Positions 14,832-62,941 of a DNA stretch of 64,000 nucleotides are shown here, piece after piece. The translations under genes and the position numbers were made by a program. Each line of letters begins with the position of its first letter. Position 1 is the first letter of the stretch. A model generated the notes under the pieces. That model saw nothing but the letters and a program-made list of their open reading frames with translations. It did no database searches and was not told the DNA's origin. The stretch is taken from assembly GCF_000010805.1 (NCBI RefSeq), contig NC_012522.1, positions 1,674,001 through 1,738,000 of the forward strand. The letters are read 5' to 3'. This DNA is from Rhodococcus opacus B4. GTDB lineage: Bacteria > Actinomycetota > Actinomycetes > Mycobacteriales > Mycobacteriaceae.

Positions 14832-15347
14832 TCAGGCGGACTCCCCGGGGATCGGGGCGCCCGACGGCATTCCCTCCCCCAGATAGGTCTGATAGAAGGG
14901 CCGCCAGTCCGCGGACGCATCGCGGCGGTGACCGGGAGTGTCCGCACCGTCGAGGTGCCGGTCGAGGTCGGCGAGACAGACACTCCACCCGGCGGCGTTC
15001 CTGGCAGCCGTGTTGCGGACCTCGAGAACGTTCACCAGCGTCAGTGCGCATCCCTCCGCGGTCGGCTCGACCTCGAAGTGGATCTCGTCCCCACCCCAGG
15101 TGAACGCCAGGGTGTAGGGCGCGCCGTAGACGAGGACCGTCCCCGTCTCGGGGTCGCTGTGCGGTTCCGGGAAGAATTCGATGTCGCCGCCGGCATAGGT
15201 GTCCAGGCGGACCCGGGACGGAAACCAGCGCTCGAGCTCGTCCGGCTCGGACACGGCCTCCCACAGCCGCTGGACGGCGAACGGGTACGTGCACCGGAAC
15301 CGCACGGCGGGACGACCCTTGAACTCGAAATACCTTCCGTGAATCAC
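14832..15347 (-). CDS. SRPBCC/AHSA1-like domain protein
   Basis: A 171-residue protein of the START/Bet v1-like (SRPBCC) superfamily: PFAVQRLWEAVSEPDELERW, then GGDIEFFPEP and LAFTWGGDEIHFEVEPTAEG, as in AHSA1/CalC-type ligand-binding proteins. The GTG start at 15347 has GAGGAG upstream and gives a normal family start. C-terminal residues 110-171 hold a helix and a Pro-rich tail. It probably binds a hydrophobic ligand; the ligand is unknown. Confidence 0.8.
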   Translation of the reverse strand: MIHGRYFEFKGRPAVRFRCTYPFAVQRLWEAVSEPDELERWFPSRVRLDTYAGGDIEFFPEPHSDPETGTVLVYGAPYTLAFTWGGDEIHFEVEPTAEGCALTLVNVLEVRNTAARNAAGWSVCLADLDRHLDGADTPGHRRDASADWRPFYQTYLGEGMPSGAPIPGESA

Positions 15348-15449
15348 CGGCCCACTCCTCGCTGTCGCACCTGACGACAGCTTGACACGGGAGACCGGCG
15401 TGCACACCGAAGTTGGCGGACATTTCCGAGCGCCACCCTCCTCCCGTCC

Positions 15450-15478
15450 TTGTCGGACAACTCCCCTACGGTGGCGGT
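15450..15478 (+). promoter_or_regulatory. Putative promoter and palindrome for the SWIM-MoxR-VWA operon
   Basis: TACGGT (15467-15472) followed by GGCGGT and GTG at 15479 fits a leaderless -10. Just upstream, 15450-15460 is the palindrome TTGTC-G-GACAA, 6 bases from the -10, in a position to act as an operator. No good -35 is seen. Confidence 0.45.
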
Positions 15479-16813
15479 GTGACGTCGCCTTGGTCGGAGG
15501 GACAGGTCGCATCGGTCGCCCCCGATGCCGGCTCGCTCGCTGCCGCCGCAAAGCTGTCGGCCGCGTGGTCGCAGACGGGCAGCAACGGCCACGCACTCTG
15601 GGGTCTGTGCCAGGGCAGCGGCAAGAGCCCCTACCGGTCGGTCGTCGACCTCTCCGGGCCTGCCTACAACTGCTCGTGTCCGAGCCGGAAATTTCCCTGC
15701 AAGCATGCGCTCGGCCTGCTGCTGATCTGGTCGCAGGGCAGGGTCCCGGAGCAGAGCGAGCCCCCGTCGTTCGCGAACGACTGGCTCGGCCTGCGGGCCG
15801 GGCGGGCGGCCGCAGCGCGTACTGCGCCGCCGGCCACGACGTCCGCCGGCGCGAAGTCCGCGGAACGCCGGGCCGAGCGGGTGGCGGCGGGACTCGACGA
15901 ACTCGACCTGTGGCTCACCGATCAGATCCGGGGCGGACTCGGCGCGGCCGACATCTCGGCCTCCGCGTTCGACGCCGTCGCGGCCCGGATGGTCGACGCG
16001 CAGGCGCCCGGAATCGCGTCCGCCCTGCGCCGCCTCCCGATCGTCGTGGCCACCCGGGCCGACTGGCCCGGCCGATTGCTCCGCGAATACGCCAGGCTGC
16101 ACCTTCTCGTCGTCGCCCATCGGCGCCTGAGCGAGCTGCCGGAACCGTTGCAGGCGACGGTGCGCTCGCACGTCGGCTATCCGGTGGCCACCGACAGCGT
16201 GCGCGGCGAGCCGGGAATCCGCGACCGGTGGATGGTCCTGGGCATGCAGACCACCGAGGAGAAGCGCCTCTTCACCCGCAAGGTGTGGTTGCTCGGCCGT
16301 GACCACGGTCGCCGCGCGATCCTCCTGGACTTCGCGCACGGCTCCGCCCACTTCCCGACGGTGATCCCGCCGCTCGGCTCGCTCGTCGACGCCACCCTGC
16401 ACTTCTACCCGGGCGCCGCGCCGCTGCGCGCCCAGTTCGGCGACACCCACGAGGCGCCCGAACCGTTCACCACGGTCGCACCGGGCGACATCGACACCGC
16501 ACTCGACGACTTCGCCGCTGCGGTCGGCGCCGACCCGTGGATCCGCTCGTGGCCCGCCCTGCTCACCGGTGTCACCCCGGCATTCGACGGCGGGCACTGG
16601 TTCGTCGTCGACGCGCAGGGACGCGCGCTGCCGCTGTCCGGCGAGGACCCGGTCCTGTGGCGGCTGCTCGGAATGTCCGGGGGCAGTCCCGTCACCGTGT
16701 TCGGGGAGTGGACCAGCGACTCCCTCGTTCCCGTGTCGGTGTTCGATCGCGGCGACGTGTACCCGCTCGTGGCCGGCACACCGTCGACCGCGACGGCGAG
16801 GAGCCGGCGATGA
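15479..16813 (+). CDS. SWIM zinc-finger protein of a MoxR/VWA operon (YehQ-like)
   Basis: A 444-residue protein with a SWIM-type zinc motif CxC-x6-CxH at Cys65, Cys67, Cys74 and His76. SWIM fingers bind nucleic acid or proteins. The rest (about 100-444) has no recognised domain; residues 110-145 are a low-complexity Ala/Arg linker. The GTG at 15479 was chosen for the -10 element 6 bases upstream; a start at 15413 would add 22 unsupported residues. It is the first of five overlapping genes. By memory, the E. coli counterpart is YehQ, also uncharacterised. Confidence 0.85.
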   Translation: MTSPWSEGQVASVAPDAGSLAAAAKLSAAWSQTGSNGHALWGLCQGSGKSPYRSVVDLSGPAYNCSCPSRKFPCKHALGLLLIWSQGRVPEQSEPPSFANDWLGLRAGRAAAARTAPPATTSAGAKSAERRAERVAAGLDELDLWLTDQIRGGLGAADISASAFDAVAARMVDAQAPGIASALRRLPIVVATRADWPGRLLREYARLHLLVVAHRRLSELPEPLQATVRSHVGYPVATDSVRGEPGIRDRWMVLGMQTTEEKRLFTRKVWLLGRDHGRRAILLDFAHGSAHFPTVIPPLGSLVDATLHFYPGAAPLRAQFGDTHEAPEPFTTVAPGDIDTALDDFAAAVGADPWIRSWPALLTGVTPAFDGGHWFVVDAQGRALPLSGEDPVLWRLLGMSGGSPVTVFGEWTSDSLVPVSVFDRGDVYPLVAGTPSTATARSRR

Positions 16814-18285
16814 GCGAACTCCTGTCCGCCGCCCTGCTCGGCACGGCACGATCGGCCCCCTCGTTCGAGGGTCTGGCCACCGGCGCACTGGCACAGTCGG
16901 TCGGCGGTGACCCGGCGGAGACCTTGCTCGGCGCCGCGGCGCTCGAAAACGCGTACCGCGACGGCGGCGTCGCCGCCTCCACCCGCGTGCTGCCGGCGCC
17001 CGCCGAGGACGATCCGCGGGTGCAGTTGCCGCCCGCGTCCGCCGCGCACCTGATGCAGTTGCTCGCCGCCAAGTCGTGGACGCTCACCGAGTGGTTCGCG
17101 GTGGTCGCCGAGCGGGGTTACCGCGCGCCGGACCACCTCGTCGCCGACCTGATGGCGGTGGCGCGCACGAACGACACCCACCGCGAGAGCATCCTGCGAC
17201 TGGCGGGCCCCCGCGGTCAGTGGCTCGCCGCGCAGAACCCGGACTGGTCGATGCTGATCCGTCGGTCCGACCGCACCGACGTGTGGACGCACGGCGCGCA
17301 CCAGGAACGACTGCTGTGGCTCACGACGATGCGGGCGGTGAACCCGGCGATCGCGATGGCCGAACTGCGCCGCACCTGGGATGCCGAACGCGGCGAGCAC
17401 CGGGCGGCGTTCATCGCGGTCCTGGGGACGGGGCTCGGCGACGCGGACGCCGGCCTGCTCGAACACGCACTCGACGACCGGCGGAAAGAGGTGCGTCAGC
17501 AGGCGGTCCAGTTGCTGCGGCAGCTGCCCAACTCCGCGTACGCCGAGCGGATGGCCGCCCGTGCCCGCGCGTGGGTGCGGGTGGAGGCAAAGCCGCTGCG
17601 CACCCGTCTCGTGGTGAACATGCCCGGTTCCCTGGATGATTCGGCCCGTCGCGACGGAATCGAGGACGTCCACTTCAAGAACAAGGGCATCCGCAGCTGG
17701 TGGTTGCGGATGGTGGTCACCGCCGCCCCGTTGTCGGTGTGGGAAGGCATGATCGGCTCGGCCTCCAGCGCGTTGGAGATCCGGATCGAAGACCAGTGGC
17801 GGGAGGTGATGACGGAGGCGTGGACCAACGCCACCGTGCTCCAGCGCAATCCGCGCTGGGCGTCCGCCCTGCTGCACCGGGAGGGGCGGAAGACCGAACG
17901 TCGCGTGGTGCCGATCGTTCCCGCCCGCGAACGGCTCGCCTATATCCTGTCGGGCCACGCCGACAGCTACCTGCTGGGCGTGGACGGCGCCGCACTGTTC
18001 GAGGGGCTGCCCCACCCGTGGCCGCTCGACCTCGCCGCGCGGGTGATCGCCCGCCTCGAGGACGTGGCCGGGCGGCACGCCGAGACCGGCAAGGACCTCG
18101 GGCAGTTCTCCCGGCACAGCCACTACTCCACCCTCCGGAGCGCGGAGACGCATTTCCCGTTCACCGCGGCGCCGCTGTTCCGGGCGGCCGCCGAACGCAC
18201 CCGCGACCCGGGCTGGCAGCAGGCGTTCGCCTCTGTCGCCGCCAACATCGACCATCGCAGAACAGTCCTGAAGGAGCTCGAGTGA
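16810..18285 (+). CDS. DUF5691-type protein of the MoxR/VWA operon
   Basis: A 491-residue soluble, largely helical protein starting MSELLSAALLGTARSAP. This N terminus and its place between a SWIM gene and a MoxR gene match the DUF5691 family. The middle (about 170-260) has helical-repeat character, with DDRRKEVRQQAVQLLRQLPN resembling a HEAT-like unit; such proteins often serve as scaffolds. It overlaps the SWIM gene by ATGA and the AAA+ gene by GTGA. No catalytic motif is visible. Confidence 0.8.
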   Translation: MSELLSAALLGTARSAPSFEGLATGALAQSVGGDPAETLLGAAALENAYRDGGVAASTRVLPAPAEDDPRVQLPPASAAHLMQLLAAKSWTLTEWFAVVAERGYRAPDHLVADLMAVARTNDTHRESILRLAGPRGQWLAAQNPDWSMLIRRSDRTDVWTHGAHQERLLWLTTMRAVNPAIAMAELRRTWDAERGEHRAAFIAVLGTGLGDADAGLLEHALDDRRKEVRQQAVQLLRQLPNSAYAERMAARARAWVRVEAKPLRTRLVVNMPGSLDDSARRDGIEDVHFKNKGIRSWWLRMVVTAAPLSVWEGMIGSASSALEIRIEDQWREVMTEAWTNATVLQRNPRWASALLHREGRKTERRVVPIVPARERLAYILSGHADSYLLGVDGAALFEGLPHPWPLDLAARVIARLEDVAGRHAETGKDLGQFSRHSHYSTLRSAETHFPFTAAPLFRAAAERTRDPGWQQAFASVAANIDHRRTVLKELE

Positions 18286-19385
18286 CCGAGATCGCGGCCG
18301 GCCCGGCCGACCTGCTACGACCCCACGCCGAGCAGGCCTACGCCGACGAACTCGCCGCCCTCGCCGCGCAGGACACCCGGCCCCGGCCACCGTCGTGGAA
18401 GTTGTCCCCGTGGGCGGTCGTGACGTACCTGCTCGGCGGCGAACTCGACGACGGCACCGCCATCACTCCCAAGTACGTCGGTCCCCGGCGGCTGATCGAG
18501 GTCGCCGTCGCGACGCTCGCCACCGACCGTGCGCTGCTTCTGCTCGGTGTGCCCGGAACCGCCAAGACGTGGGTGTCCGAACACCTGTCGGCGGCGGTGT
18601 CCGGCGAGTCGACCCTGCTCGTCCAGGGAACGTCGGGCACCCCGGAGGAGGCCATCCGATACGGCTGGAACTACGCGAGACTCCTCGCCGAGGGCCCGAC
18701 CGCGGGCGCACTCGTTCCGTCCCCGGTCATGACGGCCATGCAAGGTGGACGGATCGCGCGGGTCGAGGAACTGACCCGCATTCCCGCCGACGTGCAGGAC
18801 GCGCTCATCACCGTGCTGTCGGAGAAGACGCTGCCGATCCCCGAACTGGGCACCGAGGTGCAGGCCGCCCGGGGTTTCAACCTGATCGCCACCGCCAACG
18901 ACCGCGACCGCGGCGTCAACGAACTGTCCTCCGCGCTGCGAAGGCGTTTCAACACGGTCGTCCTGCCCCTGCCCGCCAGCGAGGAGGACGAGGTCGCCAT
19001 CGTCGCGCGGCGGGTCGAGGAACTCGGGTCCTCGCTGGAACTGCCGGAGGTCCCCGCGACGGACGACGAGATCCGGCGTGTGGTCACCGTGTTCCGGGAA
19101 TTGCGGTCCGGCGCCACCGGCGACGGCCGCACCAAGCTGAAGTCGCCGTCCGGAACCTTGTCGACGGCGGAGGCGATCTCCGTCGTCACCAACGGACTCG
19201 CCCTCGCCGCGCACTTCGGGGACGGCGTGCTCCGTCCCTCCGACGTCGCCGCAGGCATCCTCGGATCCGTACTGAAGGATCCGGTGGCCGACCGGGTGGT
19301 GTGGACGGAATACCTCGAGGCCGTGGTCCGCGAACGGGAGGGCTGGGCCGACTTCTACCGGGCGTGCCGCGAGGTCACCGGGTGA
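18282..19385 (+). CDS. MoxR-family AAA+ ATPase (YehL-like)
   Basis: A 367-residue AAA+ ATPase of the MoxR clade. Walker A is GVPGTAKTW with Lys95. The Walker B region reads RIARVEELTR, with Glu-Glu where most MoxR proteins have Asp-Glu. Sensor 1 lies in NLIATANDRDRGVNELS and the Arg finger in SALRRRFN. MoxR ATPases act with VWA proteins as chaperone-like or metal-insertion machines. Its VWA partner is the fifth gene. GTG overlaps the previous stop, with AAGGAG upstream. Confidence 0.9.
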   Translation: MTEIAAGPADLLRPHAEQAYADELAALAAQDTRPRPPSWKLSPWAVVTYLLGGELDDGTAITPKYVGPRRLIEVAVATLATDRALLLLGVPGTAKTWVSEHLSAAVSGESTLLVQGTSGTPEEAIRYGWNYARLLAEGPTAGALVPSPVMTAMQGGRIARVEELTRIPADVQDALITVLSEKTLPIPELGTEVQAARGFNLIATANDRDRGVNELSSALRRRFNTVVLPLPASEEDEVAIVARRVEELGSSLELPEVPATDDEIRRVVTVFRELRSGATGDGRTKLKSPSGTLSTAEAISVVTNGLALAAHFGDGVLRPSDVAAGILGSVLKDPVADRVVWTEYLEAVVREREGWADFYRACREVTG

Positions 19386-21550
19386 GTTCGGACATCCGTG
19401 TCTTCGGCATCCGCCACCACGGGCCCGGTTCGGCACGATCGGTGCGTCGCGCGCTCGACGAGTTCGCTCCCGACGCCGTCCTGATCGAAGGGCCCGCGGA
19501 CGCCGATCCGCTGGTCGCGTTGACCGCGTCCGACACCATGGAACCCCCGGTGGCGTTGCTCGCGTATGCCACCGGCGAACCCCGGACGGCGGCGTTCTGG
19601 CCGTTCGCCGTGTTCTCGCCGGAGTGGCAGGCGCTGTCGTGGGCGGCCGGACACGGCGTCGACGTGCGCTTCTGCGACCTCCCGGCCGCCAACACCCTCG
19701 CCGCCGACCGCGCCGAGTCCCGTTCCGAGGATCCGCTGACAGCGTTGGCCGCGGCGGCCGGCTACGACGACACCGAACGCTGGTGGGACGCCGTCATCGA
19801 ATCCGGTTCGGGGGCCGACGCGTTCGATGCGATCACCGACGCCATGACCGCACTGCGGGACACCGTCGACCTCGACGAGCCGACCAGCAGGCGCGAGGCG
19901 TACATGCGCCAGACCCTGCGGAAGGTGATCAAGGGCGGTGCCGAGCGGATCGCGGTGGTGTGCGGCGCCTGGCACGCCCCGGCGCTCGCGGGCCCCCTCG
20001 GACCGGCCACCGCGGACGCGCGAATCCTCAAGGGAATCCCCAAGATCAAGACCTCACTGACATGGGTGCCGTGGACGCATTCACGGCTGTCCACGGCGTC
20101 CGGATACGGCGCCGGCATCACCTCCCCCGGCTGGTATCACCACCTGTTCACCGCCCCGGACCGCACGATCACCCGATGGCTCACGAAGGTCGCGGGGGTA
20201 CTGCGGGACGAGGACCTTCCGGTGTCGAGTGCGCACGTCATCGAATCCGTCCGTCTCGCAGACACGTTGGCCGCATTGCGGGCGCGGCCGCTGGCCGGTC
20301 TCTCCGAGGTCACCGAGGCCACCCGCGCCGTGATGTGCGACGGGGACGACGTCCTGCTCGACCTGATCACGCGTCGCCTCGTCGTCGGCGAATCCCTCGG
20401 CGCCGTCCCGGACGACACCCCGACGGTTCCTCTCGACGCCGACCTGCGGGCCCGGGCGAAGTCCCTGCGCCTGAAACAGCAGTCCACCGAGAAGACCATC
20501 GACCTCGACCTCCGCCGGGACAACGACGTCGCGCGGTCCCGGCTCCTGCATCGCCTGCAGATCCTCGGTGTCGGCTGGGGCACCCCGGCCGACAGCGACG
20601 TCCGCGGCACCGGCACGTTCCGTGAGACGTGGTCGCTGACCTGGCACCCCGAACTGGCGGTGTCGATCATCGAGGCGTCGCTGTGGGGCACCACCGTCGA
20701 GGCCGCGGCCACGGCGAAGGTGCGGGAGGAGGCGGCGGCCGGCGACGTCTCGCTTGCCCGGCTCACCGGGCTGCTCGAGCAGGCGCTGCTGTCGGATCTC
20801 GGCGACGCCCTGGCCGAACTGTTGCGCGGGCTGGAGACCGCGGCCACGCTCGACCACGACGTCATGCACCTGATGGACGCGCTGCCCGCGCTCACCCGCA
20901 CCCTGCGGTACGGCGACGTCCGCGGAACCGACGTCTCGTCCTTCGTCCGCGTCACCGACAGCCTGCTCGTCCGCATCTGCGCGGGACTGCCGTCGGCGAT
21001 GTCCGGTCTGGACGACGACAGCGCCCTCGACCTGCGCCGCGCCGTCGACGACGTCCACGCGGCGGTGATGTTGCGCGACGACGACCGCGCGTCGGCGCGG
21101 TGGCTCGGCACCCTCACCGGCCTCGTCGACCGCAGCGACGTGAACGGCCTCGTGATCGGGCGCATGGTCCGACTGCTTCGCGACGCGGGCGCCGTCGGCG
21201 AAACCGAGGCCGCCACCCGGCTGTCGCGGGCGCTGTCCGTCGGCGCCGACCCGTCCGCCAAGGCGGGGTGGGTCGACGGCTTCCTCGGCGGCGGCGGGCT
21301 GCTGCTGGTTCACGACCGGCAACTGTTACGACTGCTCGACGGGTGGGTGTCGGGGCTGCGCGAGCAGGATTTCGTCGACGTGCTGCCACTGCTGCGGCGC
21401 ACGTTCGGCAGCTTCGAGACCGGGGAACGCCGGGCCATCGGACAGTCCGTGGAGGGTGGCTCCACAGCCGATGCTCCCGCCGGAGTCGATGCCCGGCGCG
21501 GCACCGTGGCGATCCGGACCGTCGCCGACATCCTGGGAGTGACGTCGTGA
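19382..21550 (+). CDS. DUF5682 protein with TraB/EreA-ChaN-like N-terminal domain
   Basis: A 722-residue soluble protein. Residues 1-205 show the ordered signature of the TIKI/TraB/EreA-ChaN superfamily: GIRHHGPGS (9-17), IEGPAD (35-40), RREAYM (170-175) and VVCGAWH (192-198). These positions hold the G-x-x-H pair and Glu that bind metal in that fold. The remaining 500 residues are helical, with charged segments and Gly-rich FLGGGGLLLV near 640, and have no known motif. By position this corresponds to E. coli YehM. The activity is unknown; metal-dependent hydrolysis is inference. It overlaps both neighbours by GTGA. Confidence 0.82.
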   Translation: MSSDIRVFGIRHHGPGSARSVRRALDEFAPDAVLIEGPADADPLVALTASDTMEPPVALLAYATGEPRTAAFWPFAVFSPEWQALSWAAGHGVDVRFCDLPAANTLAADRAESRSEDPLTALAAAAGYDDTERWWDAVIESGSGADAFDAITDAMTALRDTVDLDEPTSRREAYMRQTLRKVIKGGAERIAVVCGAWHAPALAGPLGPATADARILKGIPKIKTSLTWVPWTHSRLSTASGYGAGITSPGWYHHLFTAPDRTITRWLTKVAGVLRDEDLPVSSAHVIESVRLADTLAALRARPLAGLSEVTEATRAVMCDGDDVLLDLITRRLVVGESLGAVPDDTPTVPLDADLRARAKSLRLKQQSTEKTIDLDLRRDNDVARSRLLHRLQILGVGWGTPADSDVRGTGTFRETWSLTWHPELAVSIIEASLWGTTVEAAATAKVREEAAAGDVSLARLTGLLEQALLSDLGDALAELLRGLETAATLDHDVMHLMDALPALTRTLRYGDVRGTDVSSFVRVTDSLLVRICAGLPSAMSGLDDDSALDLRRAVDDVHAAVMLRDDDRASARWLGTLTGLVDRSDVNGLVIGRMVRLLRDAGAVGETEAATRLSRALSVGADPSAKAGWVDGFLGGGGLLLVHDRQLLRLLDGWVSGLREQDFVDVLPLLRRTFGSFETGERRAIGQSVEGGSTADAPAGVDARRGTVAIRTVADILGVTS

Positions 21551-22707
21551 CCAAGGACGCGGAACGGCTGCGACGGTGGCGGCTGCTGCTCGGCAACGCC
21601 GCCGAGGAATCCACCGGCGGACTGACGTCCAGGACGGACGCGGCGATGGACGGCGCACTGGCCGCGCTGTACGACACCGGCAGCGAGGGGTCGAAGAGCC
21701 GCCGCCGGGGTGCGGGTCTCGGCGGATCGGCACCGAAGGTCGCGCGCTGGCTCGGCGACATCCGCACCTATTTCCCGAGCAGCGTCGTGCAGGTGATGCA
21801 GAAGGACGCCATCGACCGGCTCGGCCTCACCCAACTGCTCCTCGAACCCGAACTGCTCGACGCCGTCGAACCGGACGTCCACCTCGTCGGCACCCTGCTG
21901 AGCCTGAACCGGGTGATGCCCGAGACCAGCAAGGCCACCGCCCGGATGGTCGTCGAGAAGGTGGTCCGGGAGGTGGAGGACCGGATCGCGCAGAAGACCA
22001 GAACCGCTGTCACCGGTTCCCTCAACCGCGCGGCCCGCACCACCAATCCCAAGTACCGCGACATCGACTGGCATCGCACCATCCGCGCCAACCTCGCGCA
22101 CTACCTGCCCGAGCACAAGACGGTGGTACCCGAACGGCTCCTCGGCTACGGCCGACGGTCGCAGGCCGTGCACCGCGACGTCGTCCTCGCGATCGACCAG
22201 TCCGGCTCGATGGCGTCGAGCGTCGTGTACGCGTCCGTGTTCGGGGCGGTGCTCGCGTCGATGCGCGCGCTGAAGACGTCGCTGGTCGTGTTCGACACGG
22301 CGGTCGTCGATCTCACCGACAAGCTGTCCGATCCCGTCGACGTGCTGTTCGGCACGCAACTCGGCGGCGGCACCGACATCAACCGGGCCATCGCCTACAG
22401 CCAGTCGCTGATCGACAGACCGGCGGAATCGTTGTTCGTGCTGATCTCGGACCTGTACGAGGGCGGGATCCGCGCGGAGATGCTCCGCCGGATGGCGGCG
22501 ATGAAGAACGCCGGGGTGCAGGTGGTGGTGCTGCTGGCGCTGTCCGACGACGGCGCGCCGTCGTTCGATCACGACAACGCGGCGGCCCTCGGCGCGCTCG
22601 GCATCCCAGCGTTCGCCTGCACCCCGGACAAGTTCCCGGAACTGCTGGCGCTCGCCCTGGAACGCGGCGACATCGGCAGGTGGGCGGACGGTCTCCAGCA
22701 GGGGTGA
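21547..22707 (+). CDS. VWA-domain (CoxE-like) partner of the MoxR ATPase
   Basis: A 386-residue protein. Residues 1-205 are a helical N-terminal domain. Residues 210-370 form a von Willebrand A domain with a complete MIDAS: Asp217-x-Ser219-x-Ser221 (DQSGS), Thr276 (GGGTDI) and Asp302 (SDLYEGG). It should bind a divalent metal and a client and dock on the MoxR hexamer. It is the last gene of the operon, overlapping DUF5682 by GTGA. E. coli YehP is the recalled counterpart. The next gene is convergent, 7 bases away. Confidence 0.88.
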   Translation: MTKDAERLRRWRLLLGNAAEESTGGLTSRTDAAMDGALAALYDTGSEGSKSRRRGAGLGGSAPKVARWLGDIRTYFPSSVVQVMQKDAIDRLGLTQLLLEPELLDAVEPDVHLVGTLLSLNRVMPETSKATARMVVEKVVREVEDRIAQKTRTAVTGSLNRAARTTNPKYRDIDWHRTIRANLAHYLPEHKTVVPERLLGYGRRSQAVHRDVVLAIDQSGSMASSVVYASVFGAVLASMRALKTSLVVFDTAVVDLTDKLSDPVDVLFGTQLGGGTDINRAIAYSQSLIDRPAESLFVLISDLYEGGIRAEMLRRMAAMKNAGVQVVVLLALSDDGAPSFDHDNAAALGALGIPAFACTPDKFPELLALALERGDIGRWADGLQQG

Positions 22708-62474: not shown

Positions 62475-62941
62475 CCGAATATCTCCTGGTTGAGTTCTCG
62501 CAGGGACTCCCCCGCGAGGATCGGTTGTAGTGCCTCGATCAGCCGAGTCCGCTCACTCTCCGGAACCCGCCATGCGAACCGTCGCAACTGATCACGCTTG
62601 CATTCGATGTGCTGGTTCGTGACCTTATGTCCGGCCTCCGACAAGGAGACCCGCTTGACCCGCCGGTCGCGCTCGTCCTCCCGGCGAACGACCAGACCCA
62701 GCTTCACGAGTTGATCGACGTTTCGACCGGCCGCGGCAACCGAGAGCCGCAGCCGCTCGGCCACTTCGTTGATCGGAAGTGGCTCACCGTGCTGGCCGAG
62801 CGCGAAGAGCATCCGCACCTGCGAAAACGTGAGGTCCAGCTCGATGAGGTTGTCCATCGACTCCGACTCCCCCGCACTCAACAGTTGGGTGAAGAAGTCG
62901 TTGAGTAGTTCGAAGAGAAGGTCAGGAGAATTGTCGGACAC
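62471..62941 (-). CDS. MarR-family regulator of the MFS pump
   Basis: A 156-residue MarR protein. INEVAERLRLSVAAAGRNVD (about 58-77) is the recognition-helix region and REDERDRRVKRVSLSEAGHK the wing. GTG 62941 is preceded by TAGCAT and 6 bases, a leaderless start. The operator-like palindrome CTATTG-CC-CAATAG (62966-62979) overlaps the likely -35 region. It overlaps the MFS gene by ATGA. Confidence 0.88.
   Translation of the reverse strand: MSDNSPDLLFELLNDFFTQLLSAGESESMDNLIELDLTFSQVRMLFALGQHGEPLPINEVAERLRLSVAAAGRNVDQLVKLGLVVRREDERDRRVKRVSLSEAGHKVTNQHIECKRDQLRRFAWRVPESERTRLIEALQPILAGESLRELNQEIFG

Follow-up and report, generated by a model that had tools for sequence, protein, structure and literature searches.

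A five-gene MoxR-DUF5682-VWA operon of Rhodococcus opacus behind a predicted DNA-damage-type promoter

Five overlapping genes and their occurrence

The stretch of DNA considered here, which we call the window, comprises 64,000 nucleotides (nt) of Rhodococcus opacus B4 (NC_012522.1). At positions 15479-22707, on the + strand, it holds an operon in which genes for a SWIM zinc-finger protein, a DUF5691 protein, a MoxR ATPase, a DUF5682 protein and a VWA protein follow one another, all five linked by four 4-base overlaps. The host genome (8.83 Mb) has a single DUF5682 copy, and the closest named relatives, among the matches listed, are from Rhodococcus. The features in question are these:

15450-15472, + strand: predicted RecA-NDp/PafBC-type promoter, TTGTCGGAC-AACTCCCC-TACGGT, 6 nt before the GTG of the SWIM gene
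15479-16813, + strand: SWIM zinc-finger protein, 444 amino acids, GTG start (Pfam PF04434, E=1.8e-6)
16810-18285, + strand: DUF5691 protein, ATGA overlap (Pfam PF18944, E=3.2e-120)
18282-19385, + strand: MoxR AAA+ ATPase of the YehL type, GTGA overlap (Pfam AAA_5, E=1.2e-37)
19382-21550, + strand: DUF5682 protein, YehM homologue, GTGA overlap (Pfam PF18934, E=8.8e-269)
21547-22707, + strand: CoxE-like VWA protein, YehP homologue, GTGA overlap (Pfam VWA_CoxE PF05762, E=6.1e-52)

The initial annotation had described five overlapping genes of these families, with an intact Walker A motif in MoxR, a complete metal-ion-dependent adhesion site (MIDAS) in the VWA protein and a CxC-x6-CxH SWIM finger. 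All of this was found: the open reading frames (ORFs) and their overlaps can be read directly, the Pfam families agree, and the translations contain GVPGTAKT (Walker A), DQSGS/GGGTD/SD (MIDAS) and the finger CSCPSRKFPCKH, whose three cysteines and histidine are invariant in 22/22 aligned SWIM proteins. The SWIM protein is a putative nucleic-acid or protein recognition subunit, and the VWA protein, with its complete MIDAS, would by analogy be the adaptor of MoxR. No NCBIfam model scored above its cut-off with any of the five proteins. The DUF5691 protein is modelled as an all-helical, HEAT-like alpha-solenoid with one beta-hairpin (predicted local distance difference test, pLDDT, 86; residues 1-31 unreliable), and comparison of the model with known folds returned generic helical repeats only, with nothing at Foldseek E<=0.001. 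A relationship of DUF5691 to DUF4132 was considered and rejected, since hhalign gave no significant match (E=0.18; controls, 0.49-0.87).

The same genes are found together elsewhere. Among 80 named loci (the best 80 of at least 587; Actinobacteria predominate, and cyanobacteria, planctomycetes and gammaproteobacteria are represented), all five genes occur together in 69, on one strand in 61 and with SWIM-DUF5691 divergent in 8, and MoxR, DUF5682 and VWA occur together in 73; for most of the remaining 11, the contig is short or ends within the locus. The five families thus co-occur outside this genome, the arrangement exceeds chance, and MoxR-DUF5682-VWA is its core. DUF5682 is present in 21/28 genomes of the genus and in 21/296 of a phylum sample; DUF5691 passes its cut-off in 18/296 of the latter, and all 18 are among the 21 with DUF5682. 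A full-length cyanobacterial locus, from Mastigocoleus (L093), has DUF5682 with no MoxR, VWA, SWIM or DUF5691 gene within 10 kb on either side.

Three further arrangements retain the core: (a) in E. coli, Agrobacterium, Sinorhizobium and Iodobacter, DUF4132 and SWIM stand in place of DUF5691, the one such DUF4132 protein scanned containing a WGR domain; (b) Streptomyces and its relatives have a DUF5682::VWA fusion; and (c) three loci (L142, L143 and L148) show the order VWA-MoxR-DUF5682. Hymenobacter has a SWIM::DUF5691 fusion. The two fusions argue for a pairing of SWIM with DUF5691 and of VWA with DUF5682, and together with the conserved co-occurrence they support the earlier proposal that the genes encode a single multi-protein machine. 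Plasmids of Rhizobium, Methylosinus (where four of the five genes are annotated), Deinococcus and Hymenobacter carry copies with the same or nearly the same five-gene set. Between MoxR and DUF5682 the Hymenobacter copy encodes a short protein of 203 amino acids with no Pfam match (L120, 11377-11985), and the Deinococcus copy one of 78 amino acids (L130, 8765-9001). A sixth operon gene was sought in the flanks of the 80 loci, and no family goes beyond 18/80 (10 representatives identified); the larger flank clusters lie mostly within Nocardia or Streptomycetaceae, and one of major facilitator superfamily transporters (13 loci) spans several genera.

The E. coli genes yehL, yehM, yehP and yehQ, which the initial annotation had named as relatives, are contiguous in strain MG1655, and profiles relate YehL, YehM and YehP to the MoxR, DUF5682 and VWA proteins (E=3.9e-89, 1.3e-74 and 7e-94, respectively). 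With a YehL homologue and adjacent YehM- and YehP-like genes, the operon is a YehL-type MoxR system. The E. coli cluster resembles it in these adjacent homologues and in having a SWIM protein alongside; it differs in that DUF4132/WGR-type neighbours replace DUF5691, which none of the seven E. coli yeh proteins tested matches, and in that the similarity of YehQ is confined to the SWIM motif.

With its neighbouring MoxR and VWA proteins and a conserved third protein, the operon also recalls the ternary MoxR-vWA conflict systems described by Kaur et al. 2020 (PMC7159879). If the operon were a conflict or anti-phage system of that kind (the initial annotation had named a conflict system as one candidate), damage caused by infection would be the trigger, the SWIM protein would recognise foreign nucleic acid and DUF5682 would be the effector. 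Beyond the ternary resemblance, such a role would fit the patchy distribution in the phylum (the 21/296 above) and the existence of plasmid-borne copies, one of which, on a 77-kb plasmid of Iodobacter (L121, 7192-20840; DUF4132-MoxR-DUF5682-VWA-SWIM), is followed about 500 nt on by type I restriction genes. However, the third proteins of Kaur et al. are VMAP, iSTAND, FtsH or a beta-propeller (PMC7159879), whereas Pfam gives DUF5682 alone here, bpMoxR staying below its cut-off. PADLOC models yielded no match below E=0.02 to the five proteins (the ATPase matched only IetA, at E=0.023-0.027, and the other four nothing), and no variable effector recurs in the flanks of the 80 loci, where the largest cluster is 18/80 (10 representatives identified). 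DUF5682 is encoded in 382/392 Streptomyces genomes (any paralogue), and the locus keeps a fixed chromosomal place beside sucCD in 28/28 loci. A plasmid database holds 36 records with copies, some of them evidently chromosomes, and a phage database one in 50,697, an unverified faecal scaffold. The E. coli plasmid copies examined are the chromosomal yeh segment between IS26 copies (at L119, for instance, a resistance plasmid carries an IS26-flanked chromosomal piece that includes the yeh cluster), so that neither these copies nor the phage record supports mobility of the system. The conflict proposal was therefore not borne out; a role in phage conflict is less likely, and we consider it rather unlikely overall.

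A DNA-damage-type promoter and its conservation

The RecA-NDp consensus is a -35 element TTGTCRGTG, a gap of 8 nt and a -10 element TANNNT; the pattern used in our searches was TTGTCR-N11-TANNNT. In Actinobacteria RecA-NDp serves as the DNA-damage promoter that depends on PafBC (PMC8223512, PMC6789036), and in Streptomyces coelicolor it precedes recA and the ultraviolet-inducible gene SCO6735 (PMC5087735); these papers support the name and role of the promoter, not the letters of the consensus. The site at 15450-15472 agrees with the RecA-NDp core and spacing, though not with the GTG part, and its position just 6 nt before the SWIM start suggests that transcription may be leaderless. The pattern occurs twice in the window, both strands counted, where 0.11 matches are expected, and the operon site is the sole match on the + strand.

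This promoter was unforeseen in the initial annotation, and it is conserved across Actinomycetota. Each named locus with a SWIM gene was tested once, within 100 nt upstream. The strict pattern precedes SWIM in 37/69 actinobacterial loci, spanning 20 named genera, and in 0/4 non-actinobacterial loci; with the relaxed pattern admitted, the actinobacterial count rises to 59/69. Chance rates per 100-nt window are 0.0020 (strict) and 0.0085 (relaxed), and reversed control patterns were found before SWIM in 0/65 (4 of the 69 loci left out). Upstream of the other genes, in same-strand windows of 280 nt, a loose pattern was found in 0/75 cases for MoxR, 0/79 for DUF5682, 0/75 for VWA and 1/53 for DUF5691. 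The divergent SWIM/MoxR promoters of Streptomycetaceae, counted in 26 of 28 loci (L101 and L198 were excluded for their overlapping SWIM and MoxR matches), carry TTGTCAGTG-like boxes, that is, the RecA-NDp -35 element. Toward SWIM the full motif is present in 26/26, and toward MoxR the -35 element with [TC]A at -10 in 26/26; LexA boxes and the heat-shock boxes of HrcA and HspR were each found in 0/26, a sigR form in 1/26 and an extracytoplasmic function form in 1/26.

In motif and position the promoter is like those of the PafBC (RecA-NDp) regulon, and in this genome recA, uvrB and sbcD have the pattern too (28, 6 and 8 nt before the gene, respectively). Other sites in this genome that lie close to a start codon include one that is 8 nt upstream of an IS605 OrfB/TnpB-type gene (L202, 356-1492) and one that is 26 nt upstream of a gene for TY-Chap, a peptide-binding chaperone (L210, 1550-2800), which is a possible further member of the damage regulon. 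We came across no earlier assignment of the operon to this regulon, and neither SWIM nor MoxR is mentioned in PMC8223512 or PMC9380542.

Independent support comes from Deinococcus, a group that uses a different damage regulator. In Deinococcus taeanensis a site of the DdrO type (consensus TATGYYHTTARCRKA; PMC8533742) ends 20 nt before the SWIM gene, and it is the only site with two or fewer mismatches in 20.2 kb. The DUF4132 protein DRA0166 and the WGR protein DR2173 of D. radiodurans belong to the DdrO/IrrE regulon, and their levels rise after mitomycin C (PMC8533742). They are related to the neighbours of the E. coli-type core, which DUF4132 accompanies, not to the core itself.

A published phenotype from Streptomyces appears to concern the same genes. 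The order in Streptomycetaceae is DUF5691 and SWIM on one strand, then MoxR, DUF5682, VWA and sucC on the other, in all 28 loci examined (20 picked from the best matches listed, and 8 named). In S. coelicolor SCO4808 is a succinyl-CoA synthetase subunit and SCO4809 is sucD (PMC3293853, PMC8981147), and SCO4804 is a Gly/Pro-rich protein of 815 amino acids and 86.04 kDa with homologues in Alphaproteobacteria, Bacteroidetes and Cyanobacteria (PMC8120823), a length and composition that fit Streptomyces DUF5682. SCO4803, SCO4804 and SCO4805 are thus probably MoxR, DUF5682 and VWA. The S. coelicolor fingerprint of gaps and length (103 nt, 815 amino acids, 171 nt) had no exact match in the loci tested; gaps vary between loci, so the assignment rests on synteny with sucCD, length and composition. 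The sco4804 region is up about eightfold on TopA depletion, a transposon insertion in sco4804 reduces the topA transcript to about 70% and TopA protein to about 50%; overexpression leads to a brief rise in topA and gyrB (PMC8120823). The published view accounts for the insertion and overexpression effects by a transcription-coupled regulator: SCO4804, with the VWA protein, would mainly set the expression of topoisomerase genes, the other genes being accessory. However, binding in electrophoretic mobility shift assays was non-specific and the authors themselves infer an indirect effect (PMC8120823), and DUF5682 matches no DNA-binding family in Pfam and has the invariant, enzyme-like residues described below. 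We hold this view to be very improbable. The terms 'MoxR', 'SWIM' and 'AAA' do not occur in PMC8120823.

DUF5682 as a candidate hydrolase

The DUF5682 protein is modelled (pLDDT 84) as an alpha/beta domain from residue 1 to about 260 and a helical solenoid from about 390 to 720. An alignment of 129 N-domain sequences, which are not independent and include relatives and the window's own copy, reveals an invariant set of H12, E36, D99, E140, R159, R171-E172 and G195xxH198. The residues H12, E36, S79, E81 and D99 are kept in 128/128 sequences that have a residue at the position, E140 and R159 in 129/129, R171, E172 and G195 in 120/120, and H198 in 121/121. The motifs G9-I-R-H12, E36 and G195-A-W-H198 have the layout of the TraB/Tiki proteins (TraB, ChaN, erythromycin esterase, Tiki), with a GxxH after the first strand, a glutamate after the second and another GxxH after a later strand; the motif order GxxH - E - R(N/E)xxM/W - GxxH of TraB proteins is the same in DUF5682, and the model also has the central beta-sheet. 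Active TIKI proteins share a His-Glu pair with a catalytic role and a core formed by a parallel beta-sheet (PMC6254334). Unlike TraB/Tiki proteins, DUF5682 has about 460 additional residues of solenoid, and sequence similarity is very low. Aligned by hhalign with nine TraB proteins drawn from E. coli and plasmid records, it gave E=0.0015 and a score of 31 with both GxxH motifs collinear, at a probability of just 17%; four control families scored 14-17 (E 0.23-0.46). Since most rows of the alignment start near residue 21, the model is poor at residues 11-19. A search of the PDB by sequence found no relative of DUF5682, and none of the TraB protein YbaP either; PF01963 (TraB) was matched in 0/60 genomes of the class.

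We suggest that DUF5682 is TraB/Tiki-like, though not a proven member of that group, and that it has a predicted hydrolase activity. The earlier idea that DUF5682 acts on a target fits such a domain; the homology itself, drawn from the invariant residues and a weak profile match, is suggestive rather than proven.

The same domain could be read otherwise, as a metal-binding client and not a protease. MoxR AAA+ ATPases work with VWA adaptors in RavA-ViaA, CoxD-CoxE and NorQ-NorD, and the operon might likewise encode a maturation chaperone in which MoxR-VWA activates one client, DUF5682 or a metal enzyme. The VWA protein here matches the VWA_CoxE family, MoxR is always accompanied by DUF5682 in the loci read, DUF5682 is at times fused to VWA, and MoxR proteins are regarded as maturation factors of specific complexes (PMC3893208). 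Yet no gene for a metabolic client is found repeatedly next to the operon in different genera, and a DNA-damage promoter and a response to TopA depletion are unexpected for a metabolic client; in its five-gene set, its damage-type promoter and its hydrolase-like third subunit, the operon differs from all three systems. We think a maturation chaperone unlikely.

A proposed remodelling machine

It seems likely that the five genes encode one remodelling machine, induced by DNA damage or topological stress. In Actinomycetota the operon would be transcribed from the RecA-NDp promoter, a step well supported by sequence, so that PafBC would switch it on with recA and other repair genes. The SWIM protein, on the HEAT-like scaffold of DUF5691, would recognise a target, most likely a nucleoprotein complex. 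As in other members of the MoxR-VWA family, the MoxR ring, coupled via the VWA MIDAS, would pull on or remodel this target, and the TraB/Tiki-like domain of DUF5682, tied to VWA, may then hydrolyse a bond in it, most likely a peptide bond. We infer both the hydrolase activity and the target.

Several observations weigh against this interpretation. (i) The window site has GAC in place of GTG after TTGTCG, and 10/69 actinobacterial loci have neither the strict nor the relaxed promoter. (ii) Genome-wide, the pattern is no more frequent than its reversed control, with 18 matches to 22, so that in this genome the evidence lies in position and conservation and not in the pattern alone. (iii) An initial search in S. 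venezuelae found that the PafBC motif of Mycobacterium smegmatis is not conserved there (PMC9380542). (iv) Upstream of the operon, the loci checked from E. coli, Thiofilum, rhizobia, Methylosinus, Iodobacter and cyanobacteria showed no LexA-type box, and no E. coli SOS box was found upstream of yehF, yehH, yehI or yehL; damage control is thus indicated in Actinomycetota and one Deinococcus only. (v) The hhalign probability of the TraB match is low, DUF5682 matches ChaN and TraB in Pfam at E=0.13 and 0.18, each in 1/34 members, with unrelated families scoring better, and whole-model fold searches of the PDB aligned only the helical part (residues 390-720), listing no TraB-fold protein; the best fold matches were generic helical repeats, none at Foldseek E<=0.001. 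(vi) SCO4804 left plasmid supercoiling unchanged and showed neither specificity in binding DNA nor interaction with TopA (PMC8120823), results that make its effect on topA indirect.

A more specific version of the remodelling machine, which we put forward as speculation and regard as quite doubtful, is a bacterial counterpart of p97-SPRTN: a damage-induced protease, powered by MoxR-VWA, that would act on proteins trapped on DNA. SWIM/DUF5691 (WGR/DUF4132 in the E. coli type) would recognise such proteins, for instance stalled or cross-linked topoisomerases, MoxR-VWA would extract them and the Tiki-like domain of DUF5682 would cleave them. Such an activity would account for the phenotype seen on TopA depletion as well as for shared control by PafBC or DdrO.

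E. coli K-12 and nearly all of the Streptomyces genomes searched have the core, yet we found no function assigned to it in the literature, and the papers searched do not mention DUF5682. Its placement in a damage regulon would link an orphan topA-control gene of S. coelicolor, the damage-induced DUF4132 proteins of Deinococcus and the silent yeh cluster, and the promoter gives this widespread, uncharacterised system its first testable job. Should MoxR-VWA indeed drive hydrolysis by DUF5682, the latter would represent a new kind of repair or quality-control enzyme coupled to an AAA+ ATPase.

Three minor observations concern the surroundings. Divergent to the operon is an AHSA1/SRPBCC gene (14835-15596, - strand; Pfam AHSA1, 2.5e-11), which as far as seen is not conserved beside it. 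The second RecA-NDp-like match in the window (62622-62644, - strand) lies 147 nt before a transporter-like ORF of 451 amino acids and is probably due to chance. Finally, L047 (13037-16078) and a cluster of 17 loci, mainly Nocardia, have an ORF for a protein kinase/ADP-ribosylglycohydrolase fusion just 3′ of VWA, at a median distance of 88 nt. This ORF is a possible local partner, and the cluster may be joined solely by the kinase domain.

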